DNA of 64,000 bases from NCBI GenBank assembly GCA_947588705.1, contig CANPYT010000003.1, positions 1-64,000 of the forward strand, in the 5' to 3' direction. This DNA comes from an uncultured Acetatifactor sp. (GTDB taxonomy: Bacteria; Bacillota; Clostridia; Lachnospirales; Lachnospiraceae). The position numbers and the translations under genes are program-made. Shown in pieces: positions 6,896 through 23,598 of the stretch (the first letter of the stretch is position 1; each line of letters begins with the position of its first letter). The notes under the pieces were generated by a model. It made no database searches, was not told where the DNA came from, and was given only the letters and a program-made list of their open reading frames with translations.

Positions 6896-7309
6896 TTAAC
6901 TATAATTCGCTATCGTTCCAATCAACTCGCTATAATAATCCGCCCATCGTTTTGCCTGATATTTAATGTCAAACTTGTCAATTTGTCCTTCTTTTGTTCT
7001 TTGGTTGTCCTTTCTCCGGAGAACAGTTTCTGCCCATTGTGTGCTCCCTGCCTCAAGATTCAGGAATGTTACATCTTCAGTTATTTTAACCTCTTTGGTG
7101 ATACGATCAGACAGAATACAGGGCAGCCCGGCCACCTGAGCTTCTATGGCAACAACCGGCAAACCTTCATAACGCGATGGTAGCAAGAAAATATCCATCG
7201 CCTGGTAAAGCCGATTGACATCCTTTCTTGATCCTAGAAGATAAATGCACTTACGTTCTTCTCCCATCGTTGTTGCTGACTCATCTTTTTGCATTTTTAT
7301 TTTTTTCAT
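6896..7309 (-). pseudogene. C-terminal remnant of a GT4 glycosyltransferase (tandem duplicate)
   Basis: 137 aa. From residue ~22 on (YLLGSRKDVNRLYQAMDIFL, then SRYEGLPVVAIEAQ) it is clearly homologous to the last third of the upstream GT4 gene (LLGSRRDCERLYQAMDLLLF, SRYEGLGIVAIEAQ). It lacks the whole N-terminal acceptor domain and the first half of the donor domain, so it should have no transferase activity by itself. Its reading frame starts inside the last codons of the upstream gene (29-bp overlap) in another frame. The simplest history is a tandem duplication followed by deletion between the copies. It still has an open frame with the E-x7-E motif, so a small regulatory or structural role cannot be excluded. 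Confidence 0.75.
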
Positions 7310-8396
7310 AAAAATTCTCCAGATTCTTTACCTGTACACAAACGTCATAGGCTGCCATTCTTTCATTTTGAAGGTTTATTTCTCTTACAGACTGCAGTGC
7401 AGCTTCTTTCCAAGTCTGTAATCCTGCGGCAAGATCCAAAAACTCTATACCATCTGAAATTTGGGTTTCCACAGGAACATTCGTTGATGCAAGTACCCGC
7501 AAACCTCTTATTTGTGCCTCAATTGCCACTATGCCCAATCCTTCATACCTTGAGGGAAACAGCAACAGATCCATCGCCTGATATAATCTTTCACAATCTC
7601 TACGGCTGCCTAATAGCCGTACCCCCCCCGCATTTTCAGGCATACTTTCCACACGTGCACGAATGCGCTCAAAATCTTCTCCATCACCAATCATTAACAA
7701 CACGGACTCTGGATTTTGAGCATGGATACTCTGAAAGATATCAATCACAAAATCCTGATTTTTTTGATAACGAAAATTACCAACATGACCGATTACAAAT
7801 TTATTTTGCAACCCTAATTCATCTCTGACCTCATCGCGCACTTGTTTGTTAAAACGATATTTGTCCAGATCAATTGCATTGTTAAAAATAGTTACCTGAC
7901 CATTCCTCATTGCTCTCTTTCCAAACAGCCATTCTCCGGCAAGTTTGGAGCAGGCTGCATAGTGTGTTGCATATATTTTAGAAAATGGACGAAGCATATA
8001 TTTGAAGATGTTTTTCTTCCACTCTCCTGGAGCAGCAGTTGAATGACTGTGTGCGATGCGGATAGGCACACCAGCTTTCTTAGCAGCATAGAGAGGAAAC
8101 ACACTTAAACTGTTAATGTGGGAATGAACAATCTGATATCTGTTTTTACGAAAGATTGTTACAAGCGCAGGTATATATTGACCTAATTTTTGATATGGCG
8201 GAACAATATAAATTCGCCCACCCAGGTTTTTTATCTGATCCTGAAGAAACTGTGTATGAGTAGAATCAGCATCTACGATAAAATCAAACTGTATTTTTGA
8301 CCGATCAATATGTCGATAATAATTCATTACTACCGCCTCTACACCGCCATTAATCATTTTTCCCATGACCTGTGCTACACGTATTGGTTTCGACAT
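7281..8396 (-). CDS. Glycosyltransferase family 4, EpsF-like
   Basis: 371 aa from the ATG at 8396 (MSKPIRVAQVMGKMINGGVE); the track start nine codons earlier lacks a better ribosome site. GGVEAVVMNYYRHID and the HSHINSLSVFPLYAAKKAG segment match EpsF-type GT4 enzymes. VIGHVGNFRYQKNQDF starts the donor domain, and SRYEGLGIVAIEAQ is the E-x7-E motif. It is the first sugar-adding gene after the LoaP leader, so its expression is the one most directly exposed to LoaP control. The downstream remnant at 6896-7309 is derived from a relative of this gene. Confidence 0.88.
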   Translation of the reverse strand: MSKPIRVAQVMGKMINGGVEAVVMNYYRHIDRSKIQFDFIVDADSTHTQFLQDQIKNLGGRIYIVPPYQKLGQYIPALVTIFRKNRYQIVHSHINSLSVFPLYAAKKAGVPIRIAHSHSTAAPGEWKKNIFKYMLRPFSKIYATHYAACSKLAGEWLFGKRAMRNGQVTIFNNAIDLDKYRFNKQVRDEVRDELGLQNKFVIGHVGNFRYQKNQDFVIDIFQSIHAQNPESVLLMIGDGEDFERIRARVESMPENAGGVRLLGSRRDCERLYQAMDLLLFPSRYEGLGIVAIEAQIRGLRVLASTNVPVETQISDGIEFLDLAAGLQTWKEAALQSVREINLQNERMAAYDVCVQVKNLENFYEKNKNAKR

Positions 8397-8715
8397 CCTA
8401 TTTTTGCCCCATCTATATATCAACCATCAATATTATTTTGTAGTTATTATCATTTAGCCTCAAAAGACATTTTAATCTAACAACTCTAAGTTGTCCGTGA
8501 GACACCGTCTAACACGGATATATTTTTTCAATATATCTTTTTATAAAGGTCTAACTTAATACTTATTATGGCAATACCACCAAACATCATAGTACTAGGT
8601 TTCCTATTTTTCCCTTTCTCCGCCCTTCACAATTAGTATTGACGTTTTCAAAATTTTCTTATCATGATAGTAACAATAGTCATGATAGGTTGCAGTAATT
8701 TTTCTGCTTCATCCA
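8397..8715 (-). promoter_or_regulatory. LoaP-associated leader between loaP and the first GT4 gene
   Basis: About 320 bases without a gene. In transcript order it holds an 8-bp hairpin (arms at 8661-8668 and 8681-8688, no U-run after it), then three hairpins packed back to back at 8480-8537, then the GT4 ribosome site. A leader of this kind placed directly downstream of a loaP gene and upstream of long biosynthetic genes is the known arrangement for LoaP-type processive antitermination. That this particular leader is the LoaP target is an inference from position and structure. Confidence 0.55.
8494..8518 (-). promoter_or_regulatory. Bulged RNA hairpin, candidate LoaP recognition element
   Basis: In the transcript this reads as a 6-bp lower stem (UCCGUG with CACGGA), a 2-nt bulge (UU) on the 5' side, a 4-bp upper stem (AGAC with GUCU) and a GGU loop. 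It is followed without spacing by a second perfect hairpin at 8480-8494 (ACAACU/AGUUGU, loop UAG) and preceded by an AU-rich one at 8517-8537 (7 bp). LoaP proteins bind a structured RNA hairpin in the leader of the operon they control, so this bulged element is my candidate. No binding can be shown from sequence alone. Confidence 0.5.
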
Positions 8716-9225
8716 TCATTTCTTCCCCACCACCTCCAGCCCCACCTTCATCTTTACCATCCTTCCGAAAAACTCCACCTCCAGCACGGCTTGTCTGCTG
8801 TGTCGGTTGATGTAAATTACCTTTCCCGTCAGATCCTTCAGGGGGCCCTCCGTAATGACCAGCTCCTTGCCGATGTACTCGCCCACGCTCATTTCAAATA
8901 CCTTGTCCTGATTGATATGTTTCCTTAAAAATTCCGTCTCCTCCTTATATAGGGGGATCGGCCCTTCATCGTCGCCCAGGATTTTGGTAAACCCGGGAAC
9001 AGACTTCAGTGCCCTGTGCAGCTCGTCCGGGTTTTCCGTCACAAAAAAGAGATAACCTGGGAACAGTGCCTTTAGTTTCCGGATCCAAACACCGTTTTCT
9101 TTCCAGGGCTTTTCGTACCTGGGCAGAAAACACTCTTCGTAGATCTTCCGATCTCCCAATTCTCTGTCGCAGATCGTCTTGATCTGTTCTTCCCGCCCGG
9201 TAGGAACCCATACCGCATACCACAT
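8716..9225 (-). CDS. loaP: LoaP, specialised NusG paralogue (processive antiterminator)
   Basis: 169 aa from ATG at 9225 (MWYAVWVPTGREEQIKTICD). The longer track start adds 18 residues of non-family sequence. The NGN domain is complete: WYAVWVPTGREEQ, then LFPGYLFFVTENPDELHRAL, then VPGFTKILG. The C-terminal KOW domain (IGKELVITEGPLKDLTGKVIYI) follows. NusG paralogues of this kind ride on RNA polymerase and suppress termination across long polysaccharide or antibiotic operons. The gene lies between the priming transferase and the glycosyltransferases, with a structured leader immediately downstream. This is not the housekeeping NusG: the spacing and location match loaP. Confidence 0.85.
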   Translation of the reverse strand: MWYAVWVPTGREEQIKTICDRELGDRKIYEECFLPRYEKPWKENGVWIRKLKALFPGYLFFVTENPDELHRALKSVPGFTKILGDDEGPIPLYKEETEFLRKHINQDKVFEMSVGEYIGKELVITEGPLKDLTGKVIYINRHSRQAVLEVEFFGRMVKMKVGLEVVGKK

Positions 9226-9424
9226 CTTTCTCACTCTTTTCTTTGTTCCGCCCCAAAGGGCAGGCTCCGCCACCCGCACCGGAAGATCCGGATCTAAGTG
9301 CGGTTGATTTCAAAAGGTATCACAACGACTTCCGACAATGTGCTCTGGGCAACAATTACCTTCCGTAGTCTTTGTCTGAGCCAGGGGCTTTCCCTGTCAA
9401 AAGCTGGCAGGGATCTCAGGCGTC

Positions 9425-10874
9425 TTACATCGCGCCGTTTCTCCCTAACACAGCCTTAAAGGTCTTTGCAAGGATCTTGAGATCCATGCGAAGGTTCCAT
9501 TCGCTGATATATTTCATGTCCAGCTTTACCACTTCCTCAAAGTCCGTGATACTGCTGCGGCCGCTGATCTGCCATAAGCCGGTGATGCCCGGTTTTGCTG
9601 CCAGTCTGGCCATATGTCTGAACTCATATTGCTCCCATTCCGCCACGGTAGGCGGCCGGGCCGATCAGGCTCATATCACCTTTTAGTACATTGAAAAACT
9701 GCGGGAATTCATCCAGGCTGAAGTCTCGGATAAAATTACCGATCCCTTTTTTGTAGGTTCCGTCAGGCAGCAGCCTGCTTCCGATGATCCTGGGGTCTTC
9801 CTCCATTTTGAACATGAACCCGTTTTTGATCTTATTCTGTGCCATCAGCTCCGCTTTCCGCTGTTCCGCGTCCATATACATACTGCGGAACTTGTACATT
9901 CGAAACCGTCGGCCGTTTCGTCCTACCCTCTCCTGGACAAAGAACAGAGGGCCTGGGGATTTGATTTTGATGGCCGGGGCTAGAAACAGGGCCAGGATCA
10001 GGGTAATTAACGATCCCACCAGACCGCCGACAATATCCAGCATCCGTTTCAGAAACAGCTGGCCGCTGGTGGCGTAATTGACGCTGGTCGTCATCACCGT
10101 ATAATTTCCCAGGCGTTCCACCAGTTGTCTGCGGTTGATCACTCTTTCCCCGTCCAGCAGTTTCTCATGGACGATCAGTCCCATTTCCGAAAAATGTTCC
10201 ATTAGCTCCCCGGGCTGTTCCGTTCCTTCCGGAAGGTTGAAGAAAACTTCATCCACCGGCTCCCTGTGGACATATTCCAGCGCGTCTTCCCACCCTGCGA
10301 CCACGGGAAATCCAGCGATCTGTCCCTGCGCGTGTTCCTGATCCAGAAGCACCACTCCCAAAATCTTGAAATTTTCGTAATTGTGGCTCTTGATATTGTC
10401 CAGGACCGTTGCCGCTATACTTTCCGTTGTCAGGACCAGCAGCGTCCGTTTTCCCTTTCTCACGATCTTTCTTTTCAGGAAGGTTTTCCATAGGATCCGG
10501 GTAACATAGCCGATCGCGCCGTAAATAATGCCTGTGAGGTACATGACGGTCCGGGAAAAGGTACTGCCCTCCTGGACGGAAAACAGGTAAAAAGTCGCAC
10601 AAAGCTCCACCAGGCAGACCTGCCGCAGTGTCACGGTTGCCTCTGACAGATATCCCCTTCTCAGGACATTCTTAAACATATCGGAAAAGATCATCAGTAC
10701 CACGGCGATCAGAGAAAGCACTACCGCCATATTGCGGTAAGTGACCTGGGCATAAAGGATCCCAAATCCGTGCCTTATCATATATGCAGAAAAAAGTGAT
10801 AAATTCAAACAGACCAGATCCAGCATTATAAAATCCAGATGTTTGATCCATCCCTGCGAACATTTTCGATACAT
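9425..10874 (-). pseudogene. Priming undecaprenyl-phosphate sugar phosphotransferase, frameshifted
   Basis: Two overlapping ORFs (416 aa and 73 aa) make one polyprenyl glycosylphosphotransferase of ~465 aa. The N-terminal part has about five membrane segments, followed by a nucleotide-binding-like domain. The catalytic domain begins at KRMLDIVGGLVGSL and includes FVQERVGRNGRRFRMYKFRSM. The frame breaks right after KGDMSLIGP: the frame yields AAYRGG, whereas the next ORF gives RPPTVAEWEQYEFRH and then PGITGLWQISGRS. Restoring two bases (one CG unit) at about 9651-9662 rebuilds the conserved GPRPP motif. This enzyme puts the first sugar-1-phosphate on the lipid carrier, so the break should stop polysaccharide synthesis unless another primer exists or the base call is wrong. 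Confidence 0.85.
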
Positions 10875-10976: not shown

Positions 10977-11006
10977 GAAAAATGGGTGGCGGGCGTTACC
11001 CGCCCA
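10977..11006 (-). terminator. Probable terminator after the SPKTG protein gene
   Basis: In the transcript a GC-rich hairpin (GGGCG...CGCCC, or a longer bulged CGGG/CCCG pairing) is followed four bases later by UUUUU. It lies about 50 bases after the stop of the SPKTG gene. It would end the cpsBCD-srtB-lcp unit before the priming transferase and loaP. Confidence 0.5.
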
Positions 11007-11057: not shown

Positions 11058-11921
11058 TCAGTGATTAAGCTGTGCTCTCTTTGCGCATACAGCGGCGCCG
11101 GCCAAAAGGATCATGGTCGCGAACACTGCTGTGGGCACGGTCTCGCCGGTCTTGGGAGACACGGGCGTAGACGTGGGAGCTACAGTTTCGTTGGTAGTCT
11201 GCGTAGTCTGGCTGGCAGTCTGTGTAGTCTGGCTGGCAGTCTGTGAAGACTGGCTGCTGGACTGTGAAGACTGGCTGCTGGACTGCGAAGACTGGCTGCT
11301 GGACTGCGAAGACTGGCTGCCAGTCTGCGAGGACTGCTGCTCATTAGTAACCGGATCACCTACTATAGGTGTAGGTGTCGGTGTCGGCGCTACCTCTGCT
11401 ACTGTTACTAAGAACAGCGCATAGTTAGAGTAATCGCTTCTGGTGAATTTGATTACGCCGTTTTCGACCTTAGCGCCTTCGACCGGCTCCCATCCGGACG
11501 TACCCTGATGCATCAGCACATACGTCTCGTTTTCCTTAGTATCTTCAACCTGATAAGGAATCTCAATGGAGATTGTCCCGCTTTGCGACGGTGTGATGTC
11601 CAGTATAAATACCAGATCTACATCTACCTGCGCGCCCGCTTCGATTGTAATAGCATCAGCGGCGGCCTCCACGATTTGTGTCTTCAGGGTGCTGTTTTCC
11701 GCTTCGATCTCATTGCTGACTGCATTTACAACAGTTTCGCCGCCTTCTGGCTCTCTGATCGAAACTTCAACTGGTTCTCCCTGACTGTTTGTTGCAGTTG
11801 GCGTTCCAGCCTTATCCACCCATGTGTTAATGGTGCCAGGGCTTACCTCGGCACAAACCGTCATGCCAAGTGTCATGGCAAGCGCCATAGACAATGCAAC
11901 AATCTTAGAAAACTTTTTCAT
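11058..11921 (-). CDS. Secreted Ser/Gln/Thr-rich protein with SPKTG sortase signal
   Basis: 287 aa. A typical signal peptide (MKKFSKIVALSMALAMTLGM, cut near VCAEV) starts the protein. Residues ~30-175 form a folded domain of beta character with no family I recognise. Then comes PTPTPTP, then a low-complexity stretch of SSQSSQS heptads and TASQTTQ units (~195-245). The C-terminus has SPKTGE, a hydrophobic segment and a basic end (KRAQLNH), which is a cell wall sorting signal of the S/N-PKTG type. The class B sortase two genes upstream is its likely anchoring enzyme. The Ser/Thr-rich stretch is a likely O-glycosylation or polysaccharide-acceptor region. There is an AGGAGG-type ribosome site. 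Confidence 0.8.
   Translation of the reverse strand: MKKFSKIVALSMALAMTLGMTVCAEVSPGTINTWVDKAGTPTATNSQGEPVEVSIREPEGGETVVNAVSNEIEAENSTLKTQIVEAAADAITIEAGAQVDVDLVFILDITPSQSGTISIEIPYQVEDTKENETYVLMHQGTSGWEPVEGAKVENGVIKFTRSDYSNYALFLVTVAEVAPTPTPTPIVGDPVTNEQQSSQTGSQSSQSSSQSSQSSSQSSQSSSQSSQTASQTTQTASQTTQTTNETVAPTSTPVSPKTGETVPTAVFATMILLAGAAVCAKRAQLNH
11197..11330 (-). repeat. 21-bp tandem repeats encoding SSQSSQS heptads
   Basis: Several near-identical 21-bp units (plus-strand core GACTGGCTGCTGGACTG) follow each other inside the SPKTG gene. The unit length is a multiple of three, so copy-number change would alter spacer length without a frameshift. Confidence 0.75.
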
Positions 11922-11992
11922 CGGTTAGTTCCTCCTTTCCTTATTGTCATGTGGTTATATCAAGCCTTACGGCCGGATACCTGATGAATTGC

Positions 11993-13069
11993 TCACTGGC
12001 TCACTTCCTCATAGAACACCTTCAGAATCAGCTCGTATAAAGCTTTCTCGTCCGGGTAAAACTGCTCCAGCACAGCGCCTTCCACGGTCTCCCCCTCCAG
12101 AGAGTAGAACCGCTCCGTAGAAAAACTATAATCCAGGATCTGGGTGGCCAGATAGCTCACCTCGTCCACAGATATGTCCGTCACCATATATTTGCTCAGC
12201 GTTTCATAGAGCTTGACCGGCAGGGTGATGTCTTCTTTCATGGCGGCTTTCGCCGTCTGGGCGTAAGCAGTCAGATACTGTTTCTGCCGCTCTAGGCGTC
12301 TGCCGGCACTGTTAAAGCTTTTGGTGTCCCGGTCATGGAGATAATGGTAAGAGGCGTCTCCCTTTAGAAGCACCGTTTCTCCCTCCCGGAACTTCCATAC
12401 ATCCTCCAGGACTTCCACCTCGACCCCGCCCACGGCGTCATTGATGGAAGGGATCGCCCCCATGTTGACGGAGCAGTACCCATGGATCGGCAGCCCGTAA
12501 AACAGGCGGGAAACCGCGTCCCGGCTGCGCTCGCAGCTGACTGTCGCCCCGTCTCCGTAGGCATGCTGAAGGGTCAGCTGTCCTTTTTCCGTCCAAAGAA
12601 AATGGCCGGTACTGCTGTATATGTCAATATCTGTCATCGTGTCTCGGTTGATGCCGATGACGGATACCTGCTTGGTATGGGGATTTAACACCAGCAGGAA
12701 GATCGCGTCGGACTGGCCGCCGTTGATTCCTTCCTCTTTTACCTCTACCTCTCCCTTGTCGTCGATCCCAAGGAACAGGAACGTCAGAATGTCTTCATTA
12801 TAGCGGTATATCTTCCCCTGGTAACGGACGTCGCCTTCTTCCCAGTTTTCGTCCGTTTCCTCTGTTCCGGTGCCTTCTTCCGGCGCCAGGCCCTCCACGA
12901 TCTGGGCGGCCCCGCTCAGATCTGGGCTCTGTCCTTTATACATGTTATAGATTCGGTTGCGGCCCGAGATCTGCAGCCCTAGGAATATGCCCGTTCCCAG
13001 CACGACTAAAGCGATCAGGACGATCACAAACCGGATCAGCACTCTGTATCGTTTTCTTTTAATTTTCAT
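11993..13069 (-). CDS. LytR-CpsA-Psr (LCP) family glycopolymer ligase
   Basis: 358 aa. One N-terminal membrane anchor (residues ~10-30), a charged linker, then the LCP domain: ILTFLFLGIDDKG, GGQSDAIFLLVLNP, VSVIGINRDTMTDI, and SVNMGAIPSINDAVGGVEV. The conserved Arg/Asp of the NRDT motif, used for pyrophosphate/metal handling, is present. LCP enzymes transfer lipid-linked glycopolymers to the peptidoglycan (or in some Gram-positives to a surface protein) outside the cell. The gene overlaps srtB by 11 bp and precedes the sortase substrate, so the three form one wall-attachment module within the polysaccharide operon. Confidence 0.88.
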   Translation of the reverse strand: MKIKRKRYRVLIRFVIVLIALVVLGTGIFLGLQISGRNRIYNMYKGQSPDLSGAAQIVEGLAPEEGTGTEETDENWEEGDVRYQGKIYRYNEDILTFLFLGIDDKGEVEVKEEGINGGQSDAIFLLVLNPHTKQVSVIGINRDTMTDIDIYSSTGHFLWTEKGQLTLQHAYGDGATVSCERSRDAVSRLFYGLPIHGYCSVNMGAIPSINDAVGGVEVEVLEDVWKFREGETVLLKGDASYHYLHDRDTKSFNSAGRRLERQKQYLTAYAQTAKAAMKEDITLPVKLYETLSKYMVTDISVDEVSYLATQILDYSFSTERFYSLEGETVEGAVLEQFYPDEKALYELILKVFYEEVSQ

Positions 13070-13973
13070 TCTGATCCTCCGCGCTGTCTGTTACGCGTAG
13101 CTGGACTCCCTGCACCAGGTAACGGCGGTCCGGCTTATTGCTGGCACAGGTAGACAGCGTGAGGATCCGGTCTTTCTCCGTTATTTCCTCCACTCGGTCA
13201 AAATTGCTGTTCATGGATCGTACCTCTTTTACTTCTTCCAGGTATTCCCCGAACCCTTCTTCCGTTTTTGTTTCATATCCCGCCAGCAGATGGATATTGC
13301 TGAATTCATAAGCGCCGAACACCCGGTATACGAACACCTCTTCCGGGGTGTAAATGTATATGTACGGATGCATCTGGAAAAATTCCGTATCTTCATAGTT
13401 GTGCAGCCCGGCGAACATGGTGCCGTTCTTCATATTATGTCCATAGACTACGGTATTGTTGTCCGTAAAGTCCGTGGTGTTGTAATCCTCCGTATAGATG
13501 CAGCCCGGCAGGCCCTTTGTGCCGTCGATATTGTAGTTGAGATAATAACTGTTATCCTCAGGATGCCGGAGGATGGGATAATCGATGGAGGAATCCGGTA
13601 TGTAGATCCAGGCGTATATATCGGGGTTGACCTCCATCTTCAGGGATGTAAAGTCCAGATCCTTGTCCGGGATCTCAATTCCGAAAGCTTCCTCCAGTTT
13701 CCTGTTTTTTTCTTCCAGGCTAAGTTCCTCCCAGCTTTTCTCCGGCGCGGGAGTTATGGCCGCCTCCTGAGACTGGTTTTCCGGCTCCGTTTGGTTCGGA
13801 ACCGTCTCCTCGGACAGCTGGCTAAAGAGTTCTTCTTCCCGCCGGCTTGCCATTCCCGCCCGAACCAGGCAGAAAATGGCTGCCGCCGCCCCTGCCAGGC
13901 AGACGACCATCCCTATGATCCAGGCCGGCCTTTTCCCGCCGGCTCCCTTATTTTCCCTTCCGTCCGTGCTCAT
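13059..13973 (-). CDS. srtB: Class B sortase
   Basis: 304 aa. A single N-terminal membrane segment (~19-40) is followed by a linker and the sortase fold. Catalytic residues are visible: His179 in VVYGHNM, Cys276 in TLSTCAS, and Arg283/284 in RRYLVQG. The DYPILRHPEDNSYYLNYNIDG segment is characteristic of the class B type. Sortases cut the Thr-Gly bond of a sorting signal and attach the protein to the cell wall. The SPKTG protein at 11058-11921 is the obvious local substrate. Location inside a capsule-type operon, overlapping lcp, is unusual. Confidence 0.9.
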   Translation of the reverse strand: MSTDGRENKGAGGKRPAWIIGMVVCLAGAAAAIFCLVRAGMASRREEELFSQLSEETVPNQTEPENQSQEAAITPAPEKSWEELSLEEKNRKLEEAFGIEIPDKDLDFTSLKMEVNPDIYAWIYIPDSSIDYPILRHPEDNSYYLNYNIDGTKGLPGCIYTEDYNTTDFTDNNTVVYGHNMKNGTMFAGLHNYEDTEFFQMHPYIYIYTPEEVFVYRVFGAYEFSNIHLLAGYETKTEEGFGEYLEEVKEVRSMNSNFDRVEEITEKDRILTLSTCASNKPDRRYLVQGVQLRVTDSAEDQNEN

Positions 13974-14006: not shown

Positions 14007-14717
14007 TTACTCTCCGTATCTGCCATAATACTTTCCGTAATATTTGCCGTAGTATTTACCATAATACTTACCGTAATAGCCCTTGCCCCCCAGTTCGACC
14101 TTGTTCAGCACACATCCCAGGATCCGGCATCCGGCCACGTCAAGCTGTTCCTTGATCTTCTTGGCAAAATGGTAGCTGATCTCCCCGCAGGCAATAACCA
14201 TGACCGCGCCGTCGCAGCATTTGGACACTACCGCGGTATCGATGACGCTTCCAAGAGGCGGCGTATCTATGATCACCATGTCGTAGTCCTTTCTGGCCTC
14301 CTCCACCATTTTCCGAAAACGGCTGTTCCCCAGAAGTTCGCTGGGATTGGGCGGCACCGGCCCGCTGAACACCATGTACAGGTTTTTGATGTCGGTGCTG
14401 CACAGGGCGTTTTGAAAATCCGCCTTGCCAACCAGATAATTCACCAGGCCCAGGCGTACCTTGCCTCTTTTATGCCGCTGGCGCATGACGCTTTTTCTTA
14501 AGTCGGCATCCACCAGAAGGACTTTTTTGCCCATCTGGGCGTAAGACTTGGCAAGTTCAAAGGAAATACTGCTCTTGCCTTCGTTGGGGGTACAGCTGGT
14601 AACGCAGATGACTTTTACGTCCTCGCCGGAAAAGTCGATATTAGTCCGAAGGGTTTTAAACGCCTCCCGGGTCCTGAAATCCAGCTCTTCTTGTTTTAGT
14701 TCGATTTCCTGCATCAC
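14007..14717 (-). CDS. cpsD: CpsD/CapB-type bacterial tyrosine autokinase
   Basis: 236 aa. Walker A SCTPNEGKSS (~41-50), Walker A' VLLVDADLRKS (~66-76) and Walker B MVIIDTPP (~147-154) are intact. The C-terminal tail is a near-perfect run of YYGK units ending GRYGE, which supplies about a dozen tyrosines for autophosphorylation. BY-kinases work with a separate membrane activator (here CpsC, overlapping by 4 bp) and the CpsB phosphatase to set chain length and export. The tail repeat is encoded by 12-bp DNA units, so it can expand or contract in frame. Confidence 0.92.
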   Translation of the reverse strand: MMQEIELKQEELDFRTREAFKTLRTNIDFSGEDVKVICVTSCTPNEGKSSISFELAKSYAQMGKKVLLVDADLRKSVMRQRHKRGKVRLGLVNYLVGKADFQNALCSTDIKNLYMVFSGPVPPNPSELLGNSRFRKMVEEARKDYDMVIIDTPPLGSVIDTAVVSKCCDGAVMVIACGEISYHFAKKIKEQLDVAGCRILGCVLNKVELGGKGYYGKYYGKYYGKYYGKYYGRYGE

Positions 14718-15544
14718 TGCACCTCCATCTCGTCGGAAATGTCTTCCAGGTCGCTGTTGTCATAGGTGTTTTGGGTCTGCGGATCCGAATGGCCGGATTT
14801 TGTCGGCGTTCCGTGCTTTTTATCTTTTCCCCTCTTACTGGTGTTCTCCGCCACAGGGATCATGGCCAGTGTGCTGAGCCCCAGGTATTTTTCCACGTCA
14901 TCCGAGTTTTTCAGCGTGTCATCCGTCAGGAAACGCACCACCAGAAGTCCAGCGCTTAAGAACAGACCGATCAGCGCTCCGATCAGCGTCCATTTCAGGA
15001 TGTTGGGGCTGGAGGGATGCTCCGGCAGGTTTGCGGCGTCCACCAGATTGACCGCCTGGATATCCATGACGCTGGTGATGTGTTCCGCGGCGATCTCCCT
15101 TACCTGGTCCGCGATCATCATGGCCATGGTCGGATCCGGGTTTGTCACCGTGATATTGATGCTGCGGGTGTTTGTCACTGTCTCCACATCCACCTGGTCG
15201 GAAAATTGCTCATAGGAGAGATCCAGGCCGTATGTCTCAATTACCTGTTCCAGCACCGTCCGGCTCTTGATGAGAAGCGCGTAGTCCATGGTAAGCTGGC
15301 TGCCCAGCTGCAGGTCGCTGTAAGTCAGGTTGCTGTTGTTTTCCTGTTTGCTCAGGATATATATTGTGGTAGTGGATTGATAAAGCGGCGTTATGGCCAG
15401 GCTGCTGATCAGGTATCCCGCGACCCCGGCTACGATACCGCTGACCAGAATGACCCCCAGCCAGTGCAGCAAAAAGCCAAACAGGTCTTTCAGATCAATT
15501 TCTATCACGTCGTCATTTGCGTTCTGCATAGATTTTCTCCTCAT
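14714..15544 (-). CDS. cpsC: Wzz/CpsC-type chain length determinant and kinase activator
   Basis: 276 aa. Two membrane segments (~22-43 and ~183-203) flank an extracellular Wzz-type domain containing SQLTMDYALLIKSRTVLEQVI and the family-typical VTVTNPDPTMA-like stretch (here ITVTNPDPTMAMMIAD). The cytoplasmic tail after the second segment is ~70 residues and contacts the kinase in this family. It sets polymer length with CpsD. The gene overlaps cpsD by 4 bp. Confidence 0.9.
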   Translation of the reverse strand: MRRKSMQNANDDVIEIDLKDLFGFLLHWLGVILVSGIVAGVAGYLISSLAITPLYQSTTTIYILSKQENNSNLTYSDLQLGSQLTMDYALLIKSRTVLEQVIETYGLDLSYEQFSDQVDVETVTNTRSINITVTNPDPTMAMMIADQVREIAAEHITSVMDIQAVNLVDAANLPEHPSSPNILKWTLIGALIGLFLSAGLLVVRFLTDDTLKNSDDVEKYLGLSTLAMIPVAENTSKRGKDKKHGTPTKSGHSDPQTQNTYDNSDLEDISDEMEVQ

Positions 15545-15562: not shown

Positions 15563-16294
15563 TTACGGGCGGCGGGATAAATCCGTAAGCAGCTCCGACA
15601 TGGCGTTTTCAAACAGAATTGCGTCCGCATACCAGCGGCTGCATTTTTGATACAAATATTCAGCGCAAGCCTTCATAGCGGGGTTTCTCTTTTTCAGGTC
15701 ATGGGTGTCCGTTCCCAGATAATCCACTATCTGCTCCTGGATCAGCTTCCTGACGAACCGTTTGGCGGAACCGCCGAACTGCCCTGTCACGCTGCCCGCG
15801 TTTACCTGGATCCGGCAGCCCATGTCTTTGATCTCCCTGACCCTGTCTGCGTCCTTCAGAAAGCACCGATATCTCTCCACATGAGCCAACACCGGCCTGT
15901 AACCCATTCCCAACAGTTGGTCCGCCGCGTTTCTAATATAATAGAATTCTTCCAGCGGCAAAAATTCAATCAGCGCATATTCCGAACCATTCAGTGTGCA
16001 AAGCTCTCCTCTGTCAAGCTTTTCTTCTAACTCCCCGTGATACAGGATCTCTGTTCCGGGATAAATCCGGATCGGGATCCCCTGTTCCCGCGCGGCCTCC
16101 TGCAGCAGTCTTATCCGTTCCAGCACCGAATGTTTGGCGGCGCGGTATTTCCCCTGCTTATAATGCGGGGTCGCGATCATATGGGAGGTTCCTTCCCTTG
16201 AGGCCCATTCCAGCATTTGCAGCGCCTGTTCCAGATCCTGTGCCCCATCGTCCATCCCGGGAAGAATATGCGAGTGAATATCCACAAATCCCAT
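15563..16294 (-). CDS. cpsB: CpsB/CapC-type PHP-domain tyrosine phosphatase
   Basis: 243 aa, the usual length. Metal-binding motifs of the PHP domain are present: FVDIHSHILPGMDDG at the N-terminus, ATPHY near residue 42, and GTDTHD near 214. It removes phosphate from the tyrosine tail of the CpsD kinase. It is the first gene after the operon promoter. The start ATG at 16294 has AAAGGTAATT upstream as ribosome site. Confidence 0.92.
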   Translation of the reverse strand: MGFVDIHSHILPGMDDGAQDLEQALQMLEWASREGTSHMIATPHYKQGKYRAAKHSVLERIRLLQEAAREQGIPIRIYPGTEILYHGELEEKLDRGELCTLNGSEYALIEFLPLEEFYYIRNAADQLLGMGYRPVLAHVERYRCFLKDADRVREIKDMGCRIQVNAGSVTGQFGGSAKRFVRKLIQEQIVDYLGTDTHDLKKRNPAMKACAEYLYQKCSRWYADAILFENAMSELLTDLSRRP

Positions 16295-16339: not shown

Positions 16340-16395
16340 TAGTCATAATAATGACTATATTTTAGGATTATAGTCTATTTAATGACCATAGTCAA
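16340..16395 (-). promoter_or_regulatory. Sigma-A promoter of the polysaccharide operon with two palindromic operators
   Basis: The -35 TTGACT (16390-16395) and -10 TATAAT (16367-16372) are 17 bp apart. An inverted repeat TGAC-TATG-GTCA (16383-16394) overlaps the -35. A second, TAGTCAT-AATA-ATGACTA (16340-16357), lies just downstream of the start region. The shared half-site TGACTA/TAGTCA suggests one regulator bound at both sides of the promoter, a repressor-like geometry. The divergent HTH gene at 16560 is a local candidate. Confidence 0.75.
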
Positions 16396-16559: not shown

Positions 16560-16778
16560 ATGATAGATTACACTCCGTTTTGGGAAACTCTGAAGAGTTC
16601 AAAGGAAACAACCTATTCCCTGATCAACAGGCACCATATCTCCAGCGCTACTCTCGATAAACTCCGTAAAAACAAACCGTTAAATACTACCACCATTAAT
16701 GACCTATGTAGGATTCTCCATTGTCGCATTCAGGATATCGCCGTTTATATCCCCTCCGAGTCAGACCAGATTCTATAA
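16560..16778 (+). CDS. Small XRE/Cro-type HTH regulator
   Basis: 72 aa from ATG at 16560, preceded by AGGAAG; the track start seven codons earlier lacks this spacing. The whole protein is one helix-turn-helix domain: TYSLINRHHISSATLDKLRKN, then NTTTINDLCRILHCRIQDIAVYIP, the pattern of small Cro/CI-like (HTH_26) proteins. It is divergent from the polysaccharide operon and may act on the palindromes in that promoter. It could equally be a remnant of a mobile element, as IS pieces follow directly. Confidence 0.75.
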   Translation: MIDYTPFWETLKSSKETTYSLINRHHISSATLDKLRKNKPLNTTTINDLCRILHCRIQDIAVYIPSESDQIL

Positions 16779-16941
16779 GGGTCTTCTTTTTCCTTTTTAC
16801 TGCAATATATTTAGTAAACGGTGGATAGAATGTACCTCGACTGCTGAGAGAAAGCATTGGATAATAGACTATATTTGTATGTATTATGAAGTATCAAAAG
16901 TTTTGTTTCAACTTTTGATACCGCTATACGGAGGTAAGTCT

Positions 16942-17232
16942 ATGGGTTCAGAAACAACTATAATGGCAAAACAACAATACCGTCTCCAGGAATGGACAGC
17001 GCAGATCAGGGACTGCCAGAACCGCCCTGCAGGTATGAGTCTTGTCAATTGGTGTATATGTCATGGCATTACGAAAGCGAATTATTACAGGCTTCGGCGC
17101 GTAAGGAAAGCCTGCCTGGAAGATCTTCAGGAAAAGCACCCGCAGCAGTCAATTATTCCCATAAAAACTGAGCTTGTCCAGCAGCTAAGCAGCAAGGACA
17201 GCTTGGAACAGGCGGGGATCGATATTCAATGA
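16942..17232 (+). CDS. IS66-family accessory protein TnpA
   Basis: 96 aa from ATG at 16942, with GGAGGT seven bases upstream; the 177-aa track ORF is an over-extension. The sequence WTAQIRDCQNRPAGMSLVNW, then CICHGITKANYYRLRRVRK, is the helix-turn-helix domain of IS66 TnpA proteins. It is needed together with TnpB and TnpC for transposition. TnpB is truncated here, so this gene is stranded. Confidence 0.8.
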   Translation: MGSETTIMAKQQYRLQEWTAQIRDCQNRPAGMSLVNWCICHGITKANYYRLRRVRKACLEDLQEKHPQQSIIPIKTELVQQLSSKDSLEQAGIDIQ

Positions 17233-17304
17233 AAGGATTTTCCGTCCATGTGGCGGAATCTACACCTATGCCCCTTCTGGCGGAAGTCCTCCGGGTGATA
17301 CGAG

Positions 17305-17472
17305 ATGCTTAATGACGCTACCTGCTTCAGGGCAGTCTATATCGTCTGCGGCTATACGGATCCTTGCTCCGATATGGACCGGCTTGCGGCCCTTGTCGAG
17401 GCCCAGACCGGGAACCGCCCTTATGTACCGGATACCCTTTACCTTTTCTACGGCCAACGCACAGCCCTTTGA
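17305..17472 (+). pseudogene. IS66 TnpB, 5' fragment
   Basis: ATG at 17305 reads MLNDATCFRAVYIVCGYTD, the start of IS66 TnpB (family form MLND..GFK.VYIV.GYTDLR). The similarity runs on to LYLFYGQRTAL and then stops at TGA, where the inverted IS1380-like piece begins. About half of the normal ~115 residues remain. It is below the ORF track length cut-off. Confidence 0.75.
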
Positions 17473-17907
17473 TCAGATCGCCGGTCAGCCCGTCATAAAC
17501 AAAGAACGGGTGATAGCCATTTCCCTGGTAGTGGCAGTTGAAAGCTACGCCTTCCTGCCTGCCATAAACATCCACTAGCGTGGTGTTTATATTAAAGAGC
17601 AGGTATTCCGGCATTTTGAATAGAGTAGACCACTTTCCGAAGTTCGCGCAGGATCTGCCCCATCTGTTCCAGCGTTGTTTCATCCATGCGGTTGAAAAAC
17701 CGGAACAGTGTCGGCTGTGATGCAAGGGCACCCTTCTCCAGGATTGCCGACATGACGGGCTCGTTTGCCAGCTCGTCAGCACAGTCATCTTCAAAATAGG
17801 CCGCAAAGATCTGATAAATGACCTGCATCGGAGGAAAGATCGCCTCCTTCAAAATTAATTTTAATCTGGCTATTGCTTTCTAAACTTACGGTGTTTAAAA
17901 TATTCAT
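17467..17907 (-). pseudogene. IS1380-family transposase, internally deleted, frameshifted and truncated
   Basis: The start ATG at 17907 gives MNILNTVSLESNSQIKINF and SSDAGH, the normal N-terminus. Sequence then jumps frame into LMQVIYQIFAAYFEDDCADE, RFFNRMDETTLEQMGQ and VVYSIQ. A further frame change at an A-run (CAAAATG) leads to LFNINTTLVDVYGRQEG and YDGLTGDLIKG. About 50 codons are missing at the first jump, where the bases GATGCAGGTCAT can be read as part of both flanks; that is consistent with a deletion between short direct repeats. Full-length relatives are ~430 aa; roughly 145 codons remain. Confidence 0.8.
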
Positions 17908-17976
17908 AAATAGACCTCTTTTCTTGCAGTTTTGTTTGGATTCGACACATGAATTTTACTACAAGTGAGAGGTCTT
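17467..17976 (-). mobile_element. IS1380-family element fragment with internal deletion
   Basis: One end is visible at about 17960-17976 (plus strand CTACAAGTGAGAGG), like IS1380 terminal repeats. The transposase inside is broken in at least three ways (see the pseudogene entry). The other end is cut off at the junction with IS66 tnpB near 17470. Confidence 0.7.
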
Positions 17977-17984
17977 TTCTATTC

Positions 17985-18208
17985 ACTCAATAGATGAAAG
18001 AGCAATAATCGGTTAAAATACAGTAACTACGCGGCTTGTTTTCCTCATACCCTGTACACACGATACACTCCAAACCTGCTGCCTGCAGCAACTCCACAGA
18101 GCGGCGGATCAAGGGTACGCCGTCTATCGGCAAAGTGGATTTCGGCACACGCTCTACATTTCTTGCAATCCGTGTTCCCTTCCCTGCAGCCAGCAAAATT
18201 GCTTTCAT
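17985..18208 (-). pseudogene. Sugar/choline-phosphate nucleotidyltransferase, 5' fragment
   Basis: ATG at 18208 with GGGAGAGG upstream reads MKAILLAAGKGTRIARN, then VPKSTLPIDGVPLIRRSVELL, then IVCTGYEE, the N-terminal Rossmann half of an NTP transferase (LicC/RfbA-like). The glycine loop and the Lys of PKSTLP are intact. The homology stops after ~60 residues, about 60 bases before the IS1380 end, and the frame ends at a chance stop. Insertion of the IS material most likely removed the rest. Its lost product could have been part of the nearby glycan pathway. Confidence 0.75.
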
Positions 18209-18415
18209 TGTAATACCTCTCCCTTTGATATGGGTACTTTTCCAATTACACGAAAAAAGAGCCCTTGCACTCGGCAACGACTCTGACAATCCTTCCATAT
18301 CCTTTGCCTCCATGCAACTTTGTACACTCTCCATAGTGCCTTTATATTATTTTATCGGCTTGTTTCCACAATTTATTAGTGAAATACACTTCAAAAATAT
18401 TTATCTTTCCAAAAA

Positions 18416-20454: not shown

Positions 20455-23400
20455 CTAATTTCCCAACAGCCCCAACACGGCCTGGTTACTTTGGTTAGCC
20501 TGCACAAGCATGGACTGAGCTGCCTGGGAAAGGATCTGATTATTGGAGAGAGAAACCATTTCCTTCGCTACATCTGTATCGCGAATACGTGACTCAGCCG
20601 CCGTTGTATTCTCGGAAACGTTTCGGTTGGAGTTGACGGCATGCTCCAATCGGTTCTGCAGCGCTCCAAAAAAGCTTCTCTTGCTGCTCACGCTCTTTAG
20701 GGCATACGAAACCATGTCTATGGTATTGCGGCAGGCGTCTGCAGTGCTGCAGTCTGCTCCGCCCAGTCCCAGGGCCAGGGTATTCAGCGCAAACCTTGGT
20801 ATGGTAAGATAGTTTGGCACATCTCCACTTTTCTGGATCCGAATGCCCTCGATGATTTTTTTATCCTTACTATAGGGTGATGCCGTATAATAAGGGCTAA
20901 AAAAGGAATCGATGGCTAGGTTTGGCTTCTCATCCCCCTGTATGTTCGCTCTTGTATAATCCTTTGCCGACAGCGACACCTTTGTGGCATCGATCATATC
21001 CTGAACCAGGCTTTCGGCATAGTCATCTCGTCCGATATCGCCCTCGGTCTTAACTTGGAAAGATTGTGTGCCCACTGTCACAGTCTTTGTGCCTGTGGCA
21101 GAACTGTTCACATTTCCGACAGCGTCCTTGTAACTAACCTTGATATTATATTTCTCGGTTGCCCCGGGATAAAGCGAGGCATCTTCATAAATATTTTTGT
21201 CTTTATTGTACACATACTGCCCGTTCGCATCATCCCGCTCCATGGTTACCTCGATCCGGTCTTCATAATCGGAATAGTCAACCTGGTATGTGATACTCTG
21301 TGTGCCGTTGTCCGGACTGCTCAGTTCCAGTGTCTGCTCCGTCCTGTAATCAAAATTCTTATCATGGGGCGTAGTATAAAACTGCGCACTGACATTCGGC
21401 TCCTGATATTCCGGCCTCTCATCCAGGACATAGAATACGCCATCCTTAGCCGCATACTGTTGATAATGATCTTCAAACCCATTGCCCGCAATCTTAACAA
21501 GCGCCTCGGCGATCTTCTGCCCAATAGAGGCCGGATCGTCGGCAAAGCCCTGTTCGATCATCGACGCCACCGAAATTTCCATTACCGGATTCATGTCATC
21601 TGATTTGTCGATCCGGTATCTCACGCCATCCGCGTTATCCCCTCCAAATGTGTCAAAAACGAATTTGAAACTGTAATGCCTGTTACAGGTATTGCAAGTG
21701 GAATCAAAGCCGCTTCCGGTCAGTTCCCAGATATCCCTCGCTGTCTGAAGCCCGGAAAAATCTACTTTTCCGCATCCATATGTCTGTCCGTCTCTCAAAC
21801 TGTATCCTAAACTACCATTTGTCCGCAGCATCGTATCGTCAAGCGTCACCGTATCAGACATTTTTGAGGTTGAAGTGATCTTATCCTCGCCGAGATATTC
21901 CTTTAAATCTTTTGGTTCCAGTTTGTATCCAAGATAGTTCGTCATGAGCTTCCGTAAGATAAAGAGATCTTCATAGGAACCAACTCCATCCTTTACCTGC
22001 TGCAGAAATTCATCATACCTCGCCTCATAGGTGATGGAAAAATCACCGGCGGCATTCTGATAAGTCAGACCGACTGTCGGCGGCGTTGCCGCATTATCTA
22101 TCTCCAGGCCGCTGGCTCCCACGAAGTAGTTACTGTCATCGAAATCCCGTCCTAACGCAAGTTCGTCTTCCAAATCCATGACCGTACCATCTTTCAGGAC
22201 GGCGCCAAGAATATTCGTGCCGTCGGCGTCCAGCTCCAACTCTGTCATATAACTATTCTTCACGCCATAATAAGAGATATTCACGCCGTCCAGGCCGTCT
22301 ATGACAGAATCCACGCTGGTGACATTGGCCAATTTATAGTTAAAAGATATATAAGTATCATCCACTCCCTCATCATCGGAATAGGTATAGGAGAAACCTG
22401 TCTTGATATCATCCCCCTCATTCCATGAACTGATCCCCATCTCCTCCCATGTGCGAAAGGAAGCTGCGATCGTATCCCTTTTATCTGCCGCCCTGTCATA
22501 TCTTTCCAGCCACAGGCCGCTCTCGTCCGCCCTAAGAATATAATCCCCACCCTTTAATATATCTTCTGCCACGCCCTTCGATACACGGAGATTGCTGATA
22601 TTCATGTCTGCATCCACAGCCTGAATAGGCTTGCTGCCTGCATACTGCGCATAAGCCCTGTACCTGAATTTTTCATCCGTTCCCTTGTTGATCGCTCTTA
22701 CCATTCCCTCGAATCCGTCGAAAGCATTGGCAATCTCAAATTCCAAGGTCATCCCATGGTACTGAGCCGTCCACATCCCATTGACATTATGGGTCTCGTT
22801 CACGGACTCCCCTGCTTCGTTCGTAATATCCTTCCACGCTATCAGGTCGCCGTCTATCCTCATCCCTGCCGCGTCCGCGGTGATCTCAAACTCCCGGGTC
22901 ACCTTCGGCACAGTGTCTCCCTCTCTCGCGGAAAAGGTCAGCTTCCTACCCCAGGCATCCTGATAGTTCCATGTTCCCCCATGGAATTTCTGTACATCGC
23001 CGTCTGCATATACCATGCCGGGATCAATCTGATCCCATGGTACTCTGGTGCCATGGAATACGATTCCGCCATATGTCACTTTTCCGGCATCAGCATCATA
23101 AGAAGCGTTAAATATGTTAAAATCATCCGGTTCACCCGTAATGCCTTTTATAGAGAATTCCACCGGATCCTCCACTTCATTATCCGTAGAAAAAATGCGC
23201 AGTTCATTGAATTTTGTTGTCTCATTGATCCTGTTGATCTCTACCTTCAACTGCTGCATTTCTTCATTGATGGCTGCACGGTCTGAGGCAGAAAGAGTTC
23301 CGTTCGCGCCCTTGACAGACAGTTCTGTCATTCTATGTAAAATATCCTGTACCTCCTCCATAGCGCCATCGCCGATCTGTACCCAGGAAATCCCGTCCTG

Positions 23401-23598
23401 CATATTTTCGGTACCCTGGTTCAGACCACGGATTTTCAGACGCATCTTTTCTGAAATAGCCAGTCCGGCCGCGTCATCGGCCGCCCGGTTTATCTTGTAA
23501 CCGGAGGACAGCTTCTCCATGCCTTTGCATATACTTTTATTATTGATCCCTAATTGCCTGTTTGTATACATGGCAGGTAAATTGTGCATAATGACCAT
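20455..23598 (-). CDS. Giant flagellin (1047 aa)
   Basis: The N-terminal D0/D1 region is canonical: MVIMHNLPAMYTNRQLGINN, EKLSSGYKINRAADDAAGLAISEKMR, DGAMEEVQDILHRMTELSVK. The C-terminal helix is also canonical (RRSFFGALQNRLEHAVNSNR, TTAAESRIRDTDVAKEM, ending QAVLGLLGN). In between lies about 800 residues of variable surface domain, far above the common 270-500 aa total. Near residue 635 this domain carries CNTCNRHYSF, a rare Cys pair for a flagellin. I found no HExxH protease motif, so this is not a flagellinolysin. The product is the filament subunit, exported by the flagellar type III system. No other flagellar structural gene is in the window. Confidence 0.93.
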   Translation of the reverse strand: MVIMHNLPAMYTNRQLGINNKSICKGMEKLSSGYKINRAADDAAGLAISEKMRLKIRGLNQGTENMQDGISWVQIGDGAMEEVQDILHRMTELSVKGANGTLSASDRAAINEEMQQLKVEINRINETTKFNELRIFSTDNEVEDPVEFSIKGITGEPDDFNIFNASYDADAGKVTYGGIVFHGTRVPWDQIDPGMVYADGDVQKFHGGTWNYQDAWGRKLTFSAREGDTVPKVTREFEITADAAGMRIDGDLIAWKDITNEAGESVNETHNVNGMWTAQYHGMTLEFEIANAFDGFEGMVRAINKGTDEKFRYRAYAQYAGSKPIQAVDADMNISNLRVSKGVAEDILKGGDYILRADESGLWLERYDRAADKRDTIAASFRTWEEMGISSWNEGDDIKTGFSYTYSDDEGVDDTYISFNYKLANVTSVDSVIDGLDGVNISYYGVKNSYMTELELDADGTNILGAVLKDGTVMDLEDELALGRDFDDSNYFVGASGLEIDNAATPPTVGLTYQNAAGDFSITYEARYDEFLQQVKDGVGSYEDLFILRKLMTNYLGYKLEPKDLKEYLGEDKITSTSKMSDTVTLDDTMLRTNGSLGYSLRDGQTYGCGKVDFSGLQTARDIWELTGSGFDSTCNTCNRHYSFKFVFDTFGGDNADGVRYRIDKSDDMNPVMEISVASMIEQGFADDPASIGQKIAEALVKIAGNGFEDHYQQYAAKDGVFYVLDERPEYQEPNVSAQFYTTPHDKNFDYRTEQTLELSSPDNGTQSITYQVDYSDYEDRIEVTMERDDANGQYVYNKDKNIYEDASLYPGATEKYNIKVSYKDAVGNVNSSATGTKTVTVGTQSFQVKTEGDIGRDDYAESLVQDMIDATKVSLSAKDYTRANIQGDEKPNLAIDSFFSPYYTASPYSKDKKIIEGIRIQKSGDVPNYLTIPRFALNTLALGLGGADCSTADACRNTIDMVSYALKSVSSKRSFFGALQNRLEHAVNSNRNVSENTTAAESRIRDTDVAKEMVSLSNNQILSQAAQSMLVQANQSNQAVLGLLGN

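Follow-up and report, generated by a model that had tools for sequence, protein, structure and literature searches.

A recurrent sortase B, LCP and secreted protein module in Lachnospiraceae capsule clusters suggests a protein carrier for capsular polysaccharide

Introduction

Gram-positive capsules are taught as being linked directly to peptidoglycan, and LCP enzymes transfer lipid-linked glycans to hydroxyls. The 64,000-nucleotide stretch analyzed here (hereafter the window; positions 1 to 64,000 of contig CANPYT010000003.1, assembly GCA_947588705.1, from an uncultured Acetatifactor sp. of the Lachnospiraceae) contains a capsule-type gene cluster that also encodes a class B sortase, a divergent LCP glycopolymer transferase, and a small secreted protein with an SPKTG sorting motif. 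What are a sortase and its apparent substrate doing among capsule genes? A preliminary description of the locus, drawing on Actinomyces, proposed that the exopolysaccharide is hung on the SPKTG protein rather than directly on peptidoglycan. Our analysis of the window and its relatives partly supports this interpretation: the LCP enzyme, secreted protein, and sortase form a recurring module in a capsule cluster, an arrangement suggesting that the capsule of some Lachnospiraceae is hung on a protein anchored in the wall.

Results

The three genes of the module

The genes lie on the − strand between the kinase and the priming enzyme of the cluster, overlapping or adjacent, as the preliminary description had placed them. 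The first, srtB (13059–13973, 304 amino acids), encodes a class B sortase with an N-terminal transmembrane (TM) segment. Its sortase domain scores above the cut-off (PF04203, E = 1.6e-14), and the best NCBIfam match is the class B sortase TIGR03064, at 150.3 bits slightly under the cut-off of 153.75. The nearest solved structure is the Listeria sortase B Lmo2181 (E = 3e-31), and nearly all of the best sequence matches in the PDB belong to class B. The catalytic residues His179 (13437–13439), Cys276 (13146–13148), and Arg284 (13122–13124) align with those of relatives and are intact. An 11-bp overlap joins srtB to the LCP gene (11993–13069, 358 amino acids), whose product matches PF03816 with 62.9 bits (cut-off 24.6); its conserved Asp and Arg residues (D103, D121, R142, R247, R258, and R261) are retained in essentially all of 113 aligned copies.

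The third gene (11058–11921, 287 amino acids) starts 72 bp after the LCP gene and has its own ribosome-binding site. It encodes a small secreted, wall-anchored protein, the proposed polymer carrier, that consists of a signal peptide, a β-rich domain, a Ser/Gln-rich linker, and a C-terminal sorting signal. The latter comprises an SPKTG motif found by pattern (res. 255–259; 11145–11159), which resembles the (S/P)PXTG of Clostridioides difficile SrtB, followed by a TM helix (res. 264–286 in the AlphaFold2 model) and the basic tail KRAQLNH (helix and tail, 11064–11132). Together with the signal peptide, these are the features of a sortase substrate. A fold search with the carrier returned no significant PDB match, the β domain having weak ZU5/GAIN-like similarity.

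The module recurs across the Lachnospiraceae

The source genome encodes four sortases and four LCP enzymes. Two LCP enzymes are canonical, lie far from sortases, and serve ordinary wall polymers; the other two are divergent and low-scoring, and each overlaps or abuts a sortase B gene. One is the window copy. The other, on contig C77, is surrounded by genes for glycosyltransferases and an ABC exporter, and a small secreted protein with an APKTGEF end is encoded after it. The same distinction holds in 61 genomes, in which at least ~27 of 29 divergent LCP genes lie within ~2 kb of a sortase B gene, whereas none of 108 canonical ones does (among the sortases listed; adjacency was counted by eye from listed positions, with the G033:C9 pair added from its retrieved sequence). 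The adjacency of LCP and sortase B genes is not due to chance.

Scanning one genome per species (85,462 species) yielded 311 stretches related to the window LCP, the best 80 of which are essentially all from Lachnospiraceae. Its nearest named relatives place the source genome in the genus of Acetatifactor. The divergent clade occurs in 124 of the 396 Lachnospiraceae genomes drawn, and in 104 of 280 genera. A first survey of 108 loci contained 102 LCP–sortase pairs, with a small secreted protein next in nearly all where the contig allows; many loci come from metagenome assemblies, and some third genes are lost at contig ends. Gene order varies, from sortase–LCP–protein in the window to LCP–sortase–protein and, once, sortase–protein–LCP.

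We then considered the 56 unique copies flanked by 4 kb or more of sequence on each side. Members of the cpsB/C/D/E set lie within 8 kb in 43 of them and any glycan marker in 46, the marker counts being lower bounds since few seeds went into the profiles (the window and locus L009; L numbers denote our loci). The triplet had been expected to recur next to cpsBCD and loaP: the first expectation stands, and the contrary pattern, a triplet mostly away from polysaccharide genes, is not what we find. The second fails, with loaP present within 8 kb in only five of the 56 loci, and we reject it as a constant partner. In Parablautia-type loci (L127–L163), the gene that separates cpsD from the LCP gene (for example L132 9023–9898) codes for a membrane protein that has two Ig-like domains.

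Sortase catalytic residues and sorting signal share the same fate

The C-terminal ends of the secreted proteins are of four kinds: a full sorting signal, a bare motif, an end at SPxT, or nothing. The full signal, as in the window, consists of SPKTG, APKTG, or a close variant, followed by a TM helix and a basic tail. Bare-motif proteins have APKTGEF, SPKTGE, SPKTGR, or SPKTGN at the extreme C-terminus, lack the TM helix and basic tail, and always adjoin an intact sortase (L009 7486–8004, L052, L057, L065, L101–L103, L105, L126, L203, L212, L218, L222, and L243). These bare ends seem to have arisen several times.

A secreted protein could be scored in 137 loci. Where the sortase has an intact His-Cys-Arg set, a full or bare signal is found in 87 of 87 loci (eight of these signals were missed by the regular expression and assigned by eye); where the catalytic set is broken, a cleavable signal is found in none of 32. 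Eighteen loci have no close sortase, and among them a signal occurs only in L195, which has an intact sortase 3.2 kb away, in L264 and, assigned by eye, in L256. In five Eisenbergiella loci (L148, L152, L155, L156, and L158) the protein stops at SPxT (SPQT, SPMT, SPNT, SPRT, and SPNT), the expected sortase cut site, and the adjoining sortases have His replaced by Arg and Cys by Gly. The cleanest single case is L216, nested among intact relatives, in which the sortase has undergone His-to-Gln and Cys-to-His changes and the signal is lost, while sister loci retain both. On the LCP tree, which has 12 changes in full, contrasts on supported branches give five cases for the association, none against, and two ties (sign test, p = 0.06). 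Co-loss of this kind strongly supports the link between sortase and substrate and, because the signal is present with intact catalytic residues and missing with broken ones, we conclude with high confidence that the secreted protein is the substrate of the neighboring sortase, in the window as elsewhere.

A conserved serine near the mature N-terminus

The LCP and secreted-protein genes remain adjacent where the sortase is dead or no sortase lies nearby, which is what one would expect of a protein that is the partner of the LCP enzyme. This conserved linkage, which outlasts sortase loss, supports an LCP–carrier partnership. In an alignment of 137 proteins, the best-conserved column after the Ala of the signal-peptidase site is Ser27 (window numbering; codon at 11841–11843, − strand), which stands at +3 of the predicted mature form; this position is Ser in 126 of the 137 and is usually followed by Pro. 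It is found with active (80/87), dead (31/32), and absent (15/18) sortases alike. When cleavage sites are placed by a crude, simple-rule predictor, Ser falls at position +3 in 88 of 133 proteins and within +2 to +4 in 117 of 133; the latter figure compares with 199 of 965 among other frames that have signal-like starts and with nine of 26 among other sorting-signal proteins, a few of which look like overlooked members of the family. The carrier is short and fast-evolving, and the alignment is approximate outside the N-terminus and the motif.

For a dedicated LCP enzyme, a natural acceptor is a Ser that is conserved at the free N-terminus of the protein always encoded alongside it, and this conservation makes Ser27 (mature position +3) a candidate site of glycan attachment. 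Two residues of the β domain behave differently from Ser27: His138 is kept in 80 of 87 proteins with an active sortase and two of 32 with a dead one, and Ser165 in 82 of 87 and one of 32. Because Ser27 is kept regardless of the sortase and His138 and Ser165 only with an active one, the two ends of the protein seem to serve different functions, one in a sortase-independent N-terminal Ser and the other in a sortase-dependent C-terminal half. The Ser-rich stretch, from which the preliminary description had labeled the protein Ser-rich, is not its conserved part. In relatives the linker is instead rich in Asp, Gly, Asn, or Thr, varies in length, or is missing altogether, and we rejected this repeat as the glycan site.

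Catalytically dead pseudo-sortases

The catalytic set of the dead sortases reads Lys-x-Gln in most copies of the Parablautia-type group (His to Lys, Arg to Gln, and Cys to Gln, Ser, Lys, Arg, Glu, or Asn) and Arg-Gly-Arg in Eisenbergiella. These pseudo-sortases are not products of gene decay: many species have them as open frames, with ~45–65% mutual identity within the Parablautia-type group, and they adjoin LCP genes whose own catalytic residues are intact (L127–L163, Parablautia-type and Eisenbergiella). For the Parablautia muri protein, the AlphaFold2 model has a mean predicted local distance difference test (pLDDT) score of 78.8, rising to ~90 over the domain, and Foldseek matches it to solved sortase B structures with E values down to 1e-16. 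A Pfam sortase domain is found in three of four tested pseudo-sortases, in two of those under the cut-off.

Most pseudo-sortases have a lipobox; some intact sortases have one too, and we rejected the lipoprotein form as a trait of dead sortases only. Separate origins for the dead sortases of Eisenbergiella and the Parablautia-type group are not claimed, as the sortase tree permits a single one, and those of L204, L216, and L248 look separate in origin. In L156 (Eisenbergiella tayi DSM 26961) the order is LCP–sortase–LCP–secreted protein, with two LCP genes around one dead sortase. We found no description of such pseudo-sortases in the literature searched; if this holds, they would be, as far as that search shows, the first reported instance of a sortase fold retained after loss of its catalytic residues.

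Capsule genes and other features of the window

The window opens at the contig start, and the cluster on its − strand runs in the order cpsB, cpsC, cpsD, srtB, LCP gene, SPKTG-protein gene, cpsE, and loaP, followed by glycosyltransferases and an acyltransferase to the contig end. No flippase or polymerase was seen in the cps cluster, which runs up to the contig end. With cpsB, cpsC, cpsD, and a priming enzyme, this is a capsule operon of the CpsBCD/E type, and the capsule-type context and flanking genes given in the preliminary description are correct; to these we add a frameshift in cpsE and a hairpin between the SPKTG-protein gene and cpsE.

All of the following features are on the − strand. 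A promoter-like site (TTGACT-17-TATAAT, 16367–16395), matched by consensus only at 11 of 12 positions, lies upstream of cpsB (15563–16294), which encodes a CpsB/CapC tyrosine phosphatase (PF19567, E = 2e-88). It is followed by cpsC (14714–15544), for a Wzz chain-length determinant (PF02706/TIGR01006), and cpsD (14007–14717), for a BY-kinase (TIGR01007, 236.7 bits, above the cut-off). The hairpin is terminator-like (10988–11004; consensus only). The priming glycosyl-phosphotransferase gene cpsE (9425–10874) was delineated by tblastn with the homologue of L064, which aligns in two frames; relative to other copies, a frameshift at ~codon 437 splits it into open reading frames at 9624–10874 and 9425–9646, reflecting either real inactivation or an assembly error. 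The loaP gene (8716–9279) encodes a NusG-family antiterminator (NF033641, 146.5 bits; cut-off 125). An Rfam search between the genes identified no known RNA element, and a weak match to mir-1286 was rejected as a chance hit on the repeat.

Three further observations concern the rest of the window. Positions 6896–7309 encode a C-terminal glycosyltransferase fragment that has 41% identity to the C-terminus of its intact neighbor (7281–8423) and the look of a truncated duplicate. A transposase remnant (DDE_Tnp_1_4) and an N-terminal nucleotidyltransferase fragment occupy 16699–18334, between the cps cluster and a GNAT-like gene. Positions 20455–23598 encode a flagellin of 1047 amino acids, whose terminal domains are normal at both the N- and the C-terminus and whose central part is a very large insert.

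Discussion

On balance, the three genes probably form a protein-carrier module for the polysaccharide of the cluster, in which the LCP enzyme joins the polymer to the protein and the resulting conjugate is then anchored by the sortase; we hold this with limited confidence. The small protein would be exported and lose its signal peptide, leaving a mature N-terminus of the form X-X-Ser-Pro. The dedicated LCP enzyme would then take the completed polymer off undecaprenyl pyrophosphate, its carrier, and attach it to a hydroxyl of the protein, most likely that of Ser27, instead of or besides peptidoglycan. Finally, the dedicated sortase B would cut SPKT|G and join the protein to peptidoglycan, so that the polymer would be held at the wall through the protein. 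We infer the transfer of glycan to the protein, and Ser27 as its site, from the gene linkage and the pattern of conservation.

A different arrangement, which we regard as unlikely, has the LCP enzyme attach the polymer to peptidoglycan as usual, with the small protein serving as an LCP-binding scaffold or chaperone near the wall that the sortase only fixes in place. The LCP residues are indeed canonical, the protein persists in lineages where sortase anchoring is impossible, as a scaffold should, and its compact β domain has only weak, non-significant fold matches. Such a scaffold, however, accounts neither for the need of covalent anchoring nor for the fact that, in a protein that evolves fast, conservation peaks at one Ser of the mature N-terminus, and the genome already has canonical LCP enzymes.

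It is distinctly improbable that the sortase acts indirectly, its uncleaved precursor building up in the membrane and the resulting stress stopping capsule display. The behavior of GspA in A. oris, whose accumulation in srtA mutants is reportedly lethal, is a precedent, and the mechanism would also yield an acapsular srtB4 mutant in Mediterraneibacter gnavus. Substrates that end in a bare motif have no TM helix and cannot jam the membrane in this way, yet they retain an active sortase, and the M. gnavus srtB4 mutants match wild-type growth in vitro (PMC13121745). Least probable of all is an ordinary sortase B and substrate that share a capsule operon by chance, without a functional tie to the LCP enzyme or polymer: sortase B genes often adjoin their substrate, and the other two sortase B loci of the source genome likewise have sorting-signal proteins nearby, but chance does not account for the contrast between divergent and canonical LCP genes in their proximity to sortase B, for a linkage that stays though gene order changes and that keeps LCP and secreted protein side by side even with a dead or lost sortase, or for the loss of capsule in M. 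gnavus srtB4 mutants (PMC13121745).

Several observations weigh against a polymer carrier anchored by its sortase. In about ten loci the motif is present without a TM helix (the bare, APKTGEF-type ends), and the model offers no explanation of how a sortase would catch a substrate already released; L256 and L264 have a signal and no sortase nearby. The test on independent contrasts is underpowered at its p of 0.06. Ten of the 56 well-flanked copies have no polysaccharide marker within 8 kb, and a minority of copies are orphans that adjoin housekeeping or other genes, such as pyruvate:ferredoxin oxidoreductase (PFOR) and pheST, EF-G/EF-Tu, or ABC sugar transporters. The conservation of His138 and Ser165 with active sortases only falls outside the model. 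The bond between polymer and protein is itself deduced, as glycan has been seen on none of these proteins.

A broader version of the carrier model is more tentative, and we consider it possible though somewhat doubtful. A widespread Lachnospiraceae system would conjugate capsule or exopolysaccharide, by way of the LCP enzyme, to the N-terminal Ser of a carrier that sortase B anchors; several lineages would instead use a dead, mostly lipoprotein pseudo-sortase, or none, together with a lost signal, and their polymer would be held at the membrane non-covalently or released. If true, a protein-carrier route that is common in a dominant gut family would change the ways in which its capsules are extracted, studied, and targeted.

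The window LCP shares its fold family and conserved Asp and Arg residues with TagTUV, Cps2A, and the capsule-attaching LCP enzymes of S. aureus; unlike these classical enzymes, its clade is divergent, has lower Pfam scores, and has genes physically linked to those of a sortase and a small secreted protein. C. difficile SrtB, of which we know no tie to LCP or capsule genes, is similar in pairing a class B sortase with an SPKTG motif, its specificity being reported as (S/P)PXTG (FEBS Lett 2014, as cited in PMC13121745). The preliminary description saw in this locus the same three parts as in Actinomyces. In A. oris, LcpA glycosylates GspA, which the housekeeping class A sortase SrtA anchors, and gspA and lcpA are suppressors of srtA lethality (PMC6381275). 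The resemblance holds insofar as an LCP gene adjoins the gene of a sortase-anchored protein, in the window and in dozens of relatives, and by analogy with LcpA, the glycosylating enzyme for GspA, we propose a counterpart role for the window LCP. It does not extend to the sortase, which in A. oris is the housekeeping class A enzyme and here is a dedicated class B enzyme within a capsule-type operon, and the likeness to the GspA locus drawn here is one of gene arrangement.

A parallel in function is found in M. gnavus, whose capsule is tied to gut colonization and inflammation and requires both the sortase B gene srtB4 (RGna_12035) and the LCP gene RGna_12040 for its display (PMC13121745). These genes adjoin by locus tag and lie near the capsule phosphatase RGna_12055, in a cluster defined as RGna_12030–12060; the text of that study gives no reason for the sortase requirement and names no carrier protein (PMC13121745). 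Gene content and numbering indicate that the M. gnavus LCP enzyme probably belongs to the divergent clade, and by numbering RGna_12030 is the predicted carrier. If the polymer is hung on such a protein, this would explain why M. gnavus without its sortase loses its capsule, a published puzzle for which the module found here points to the gene that is missing and to one residue within it.

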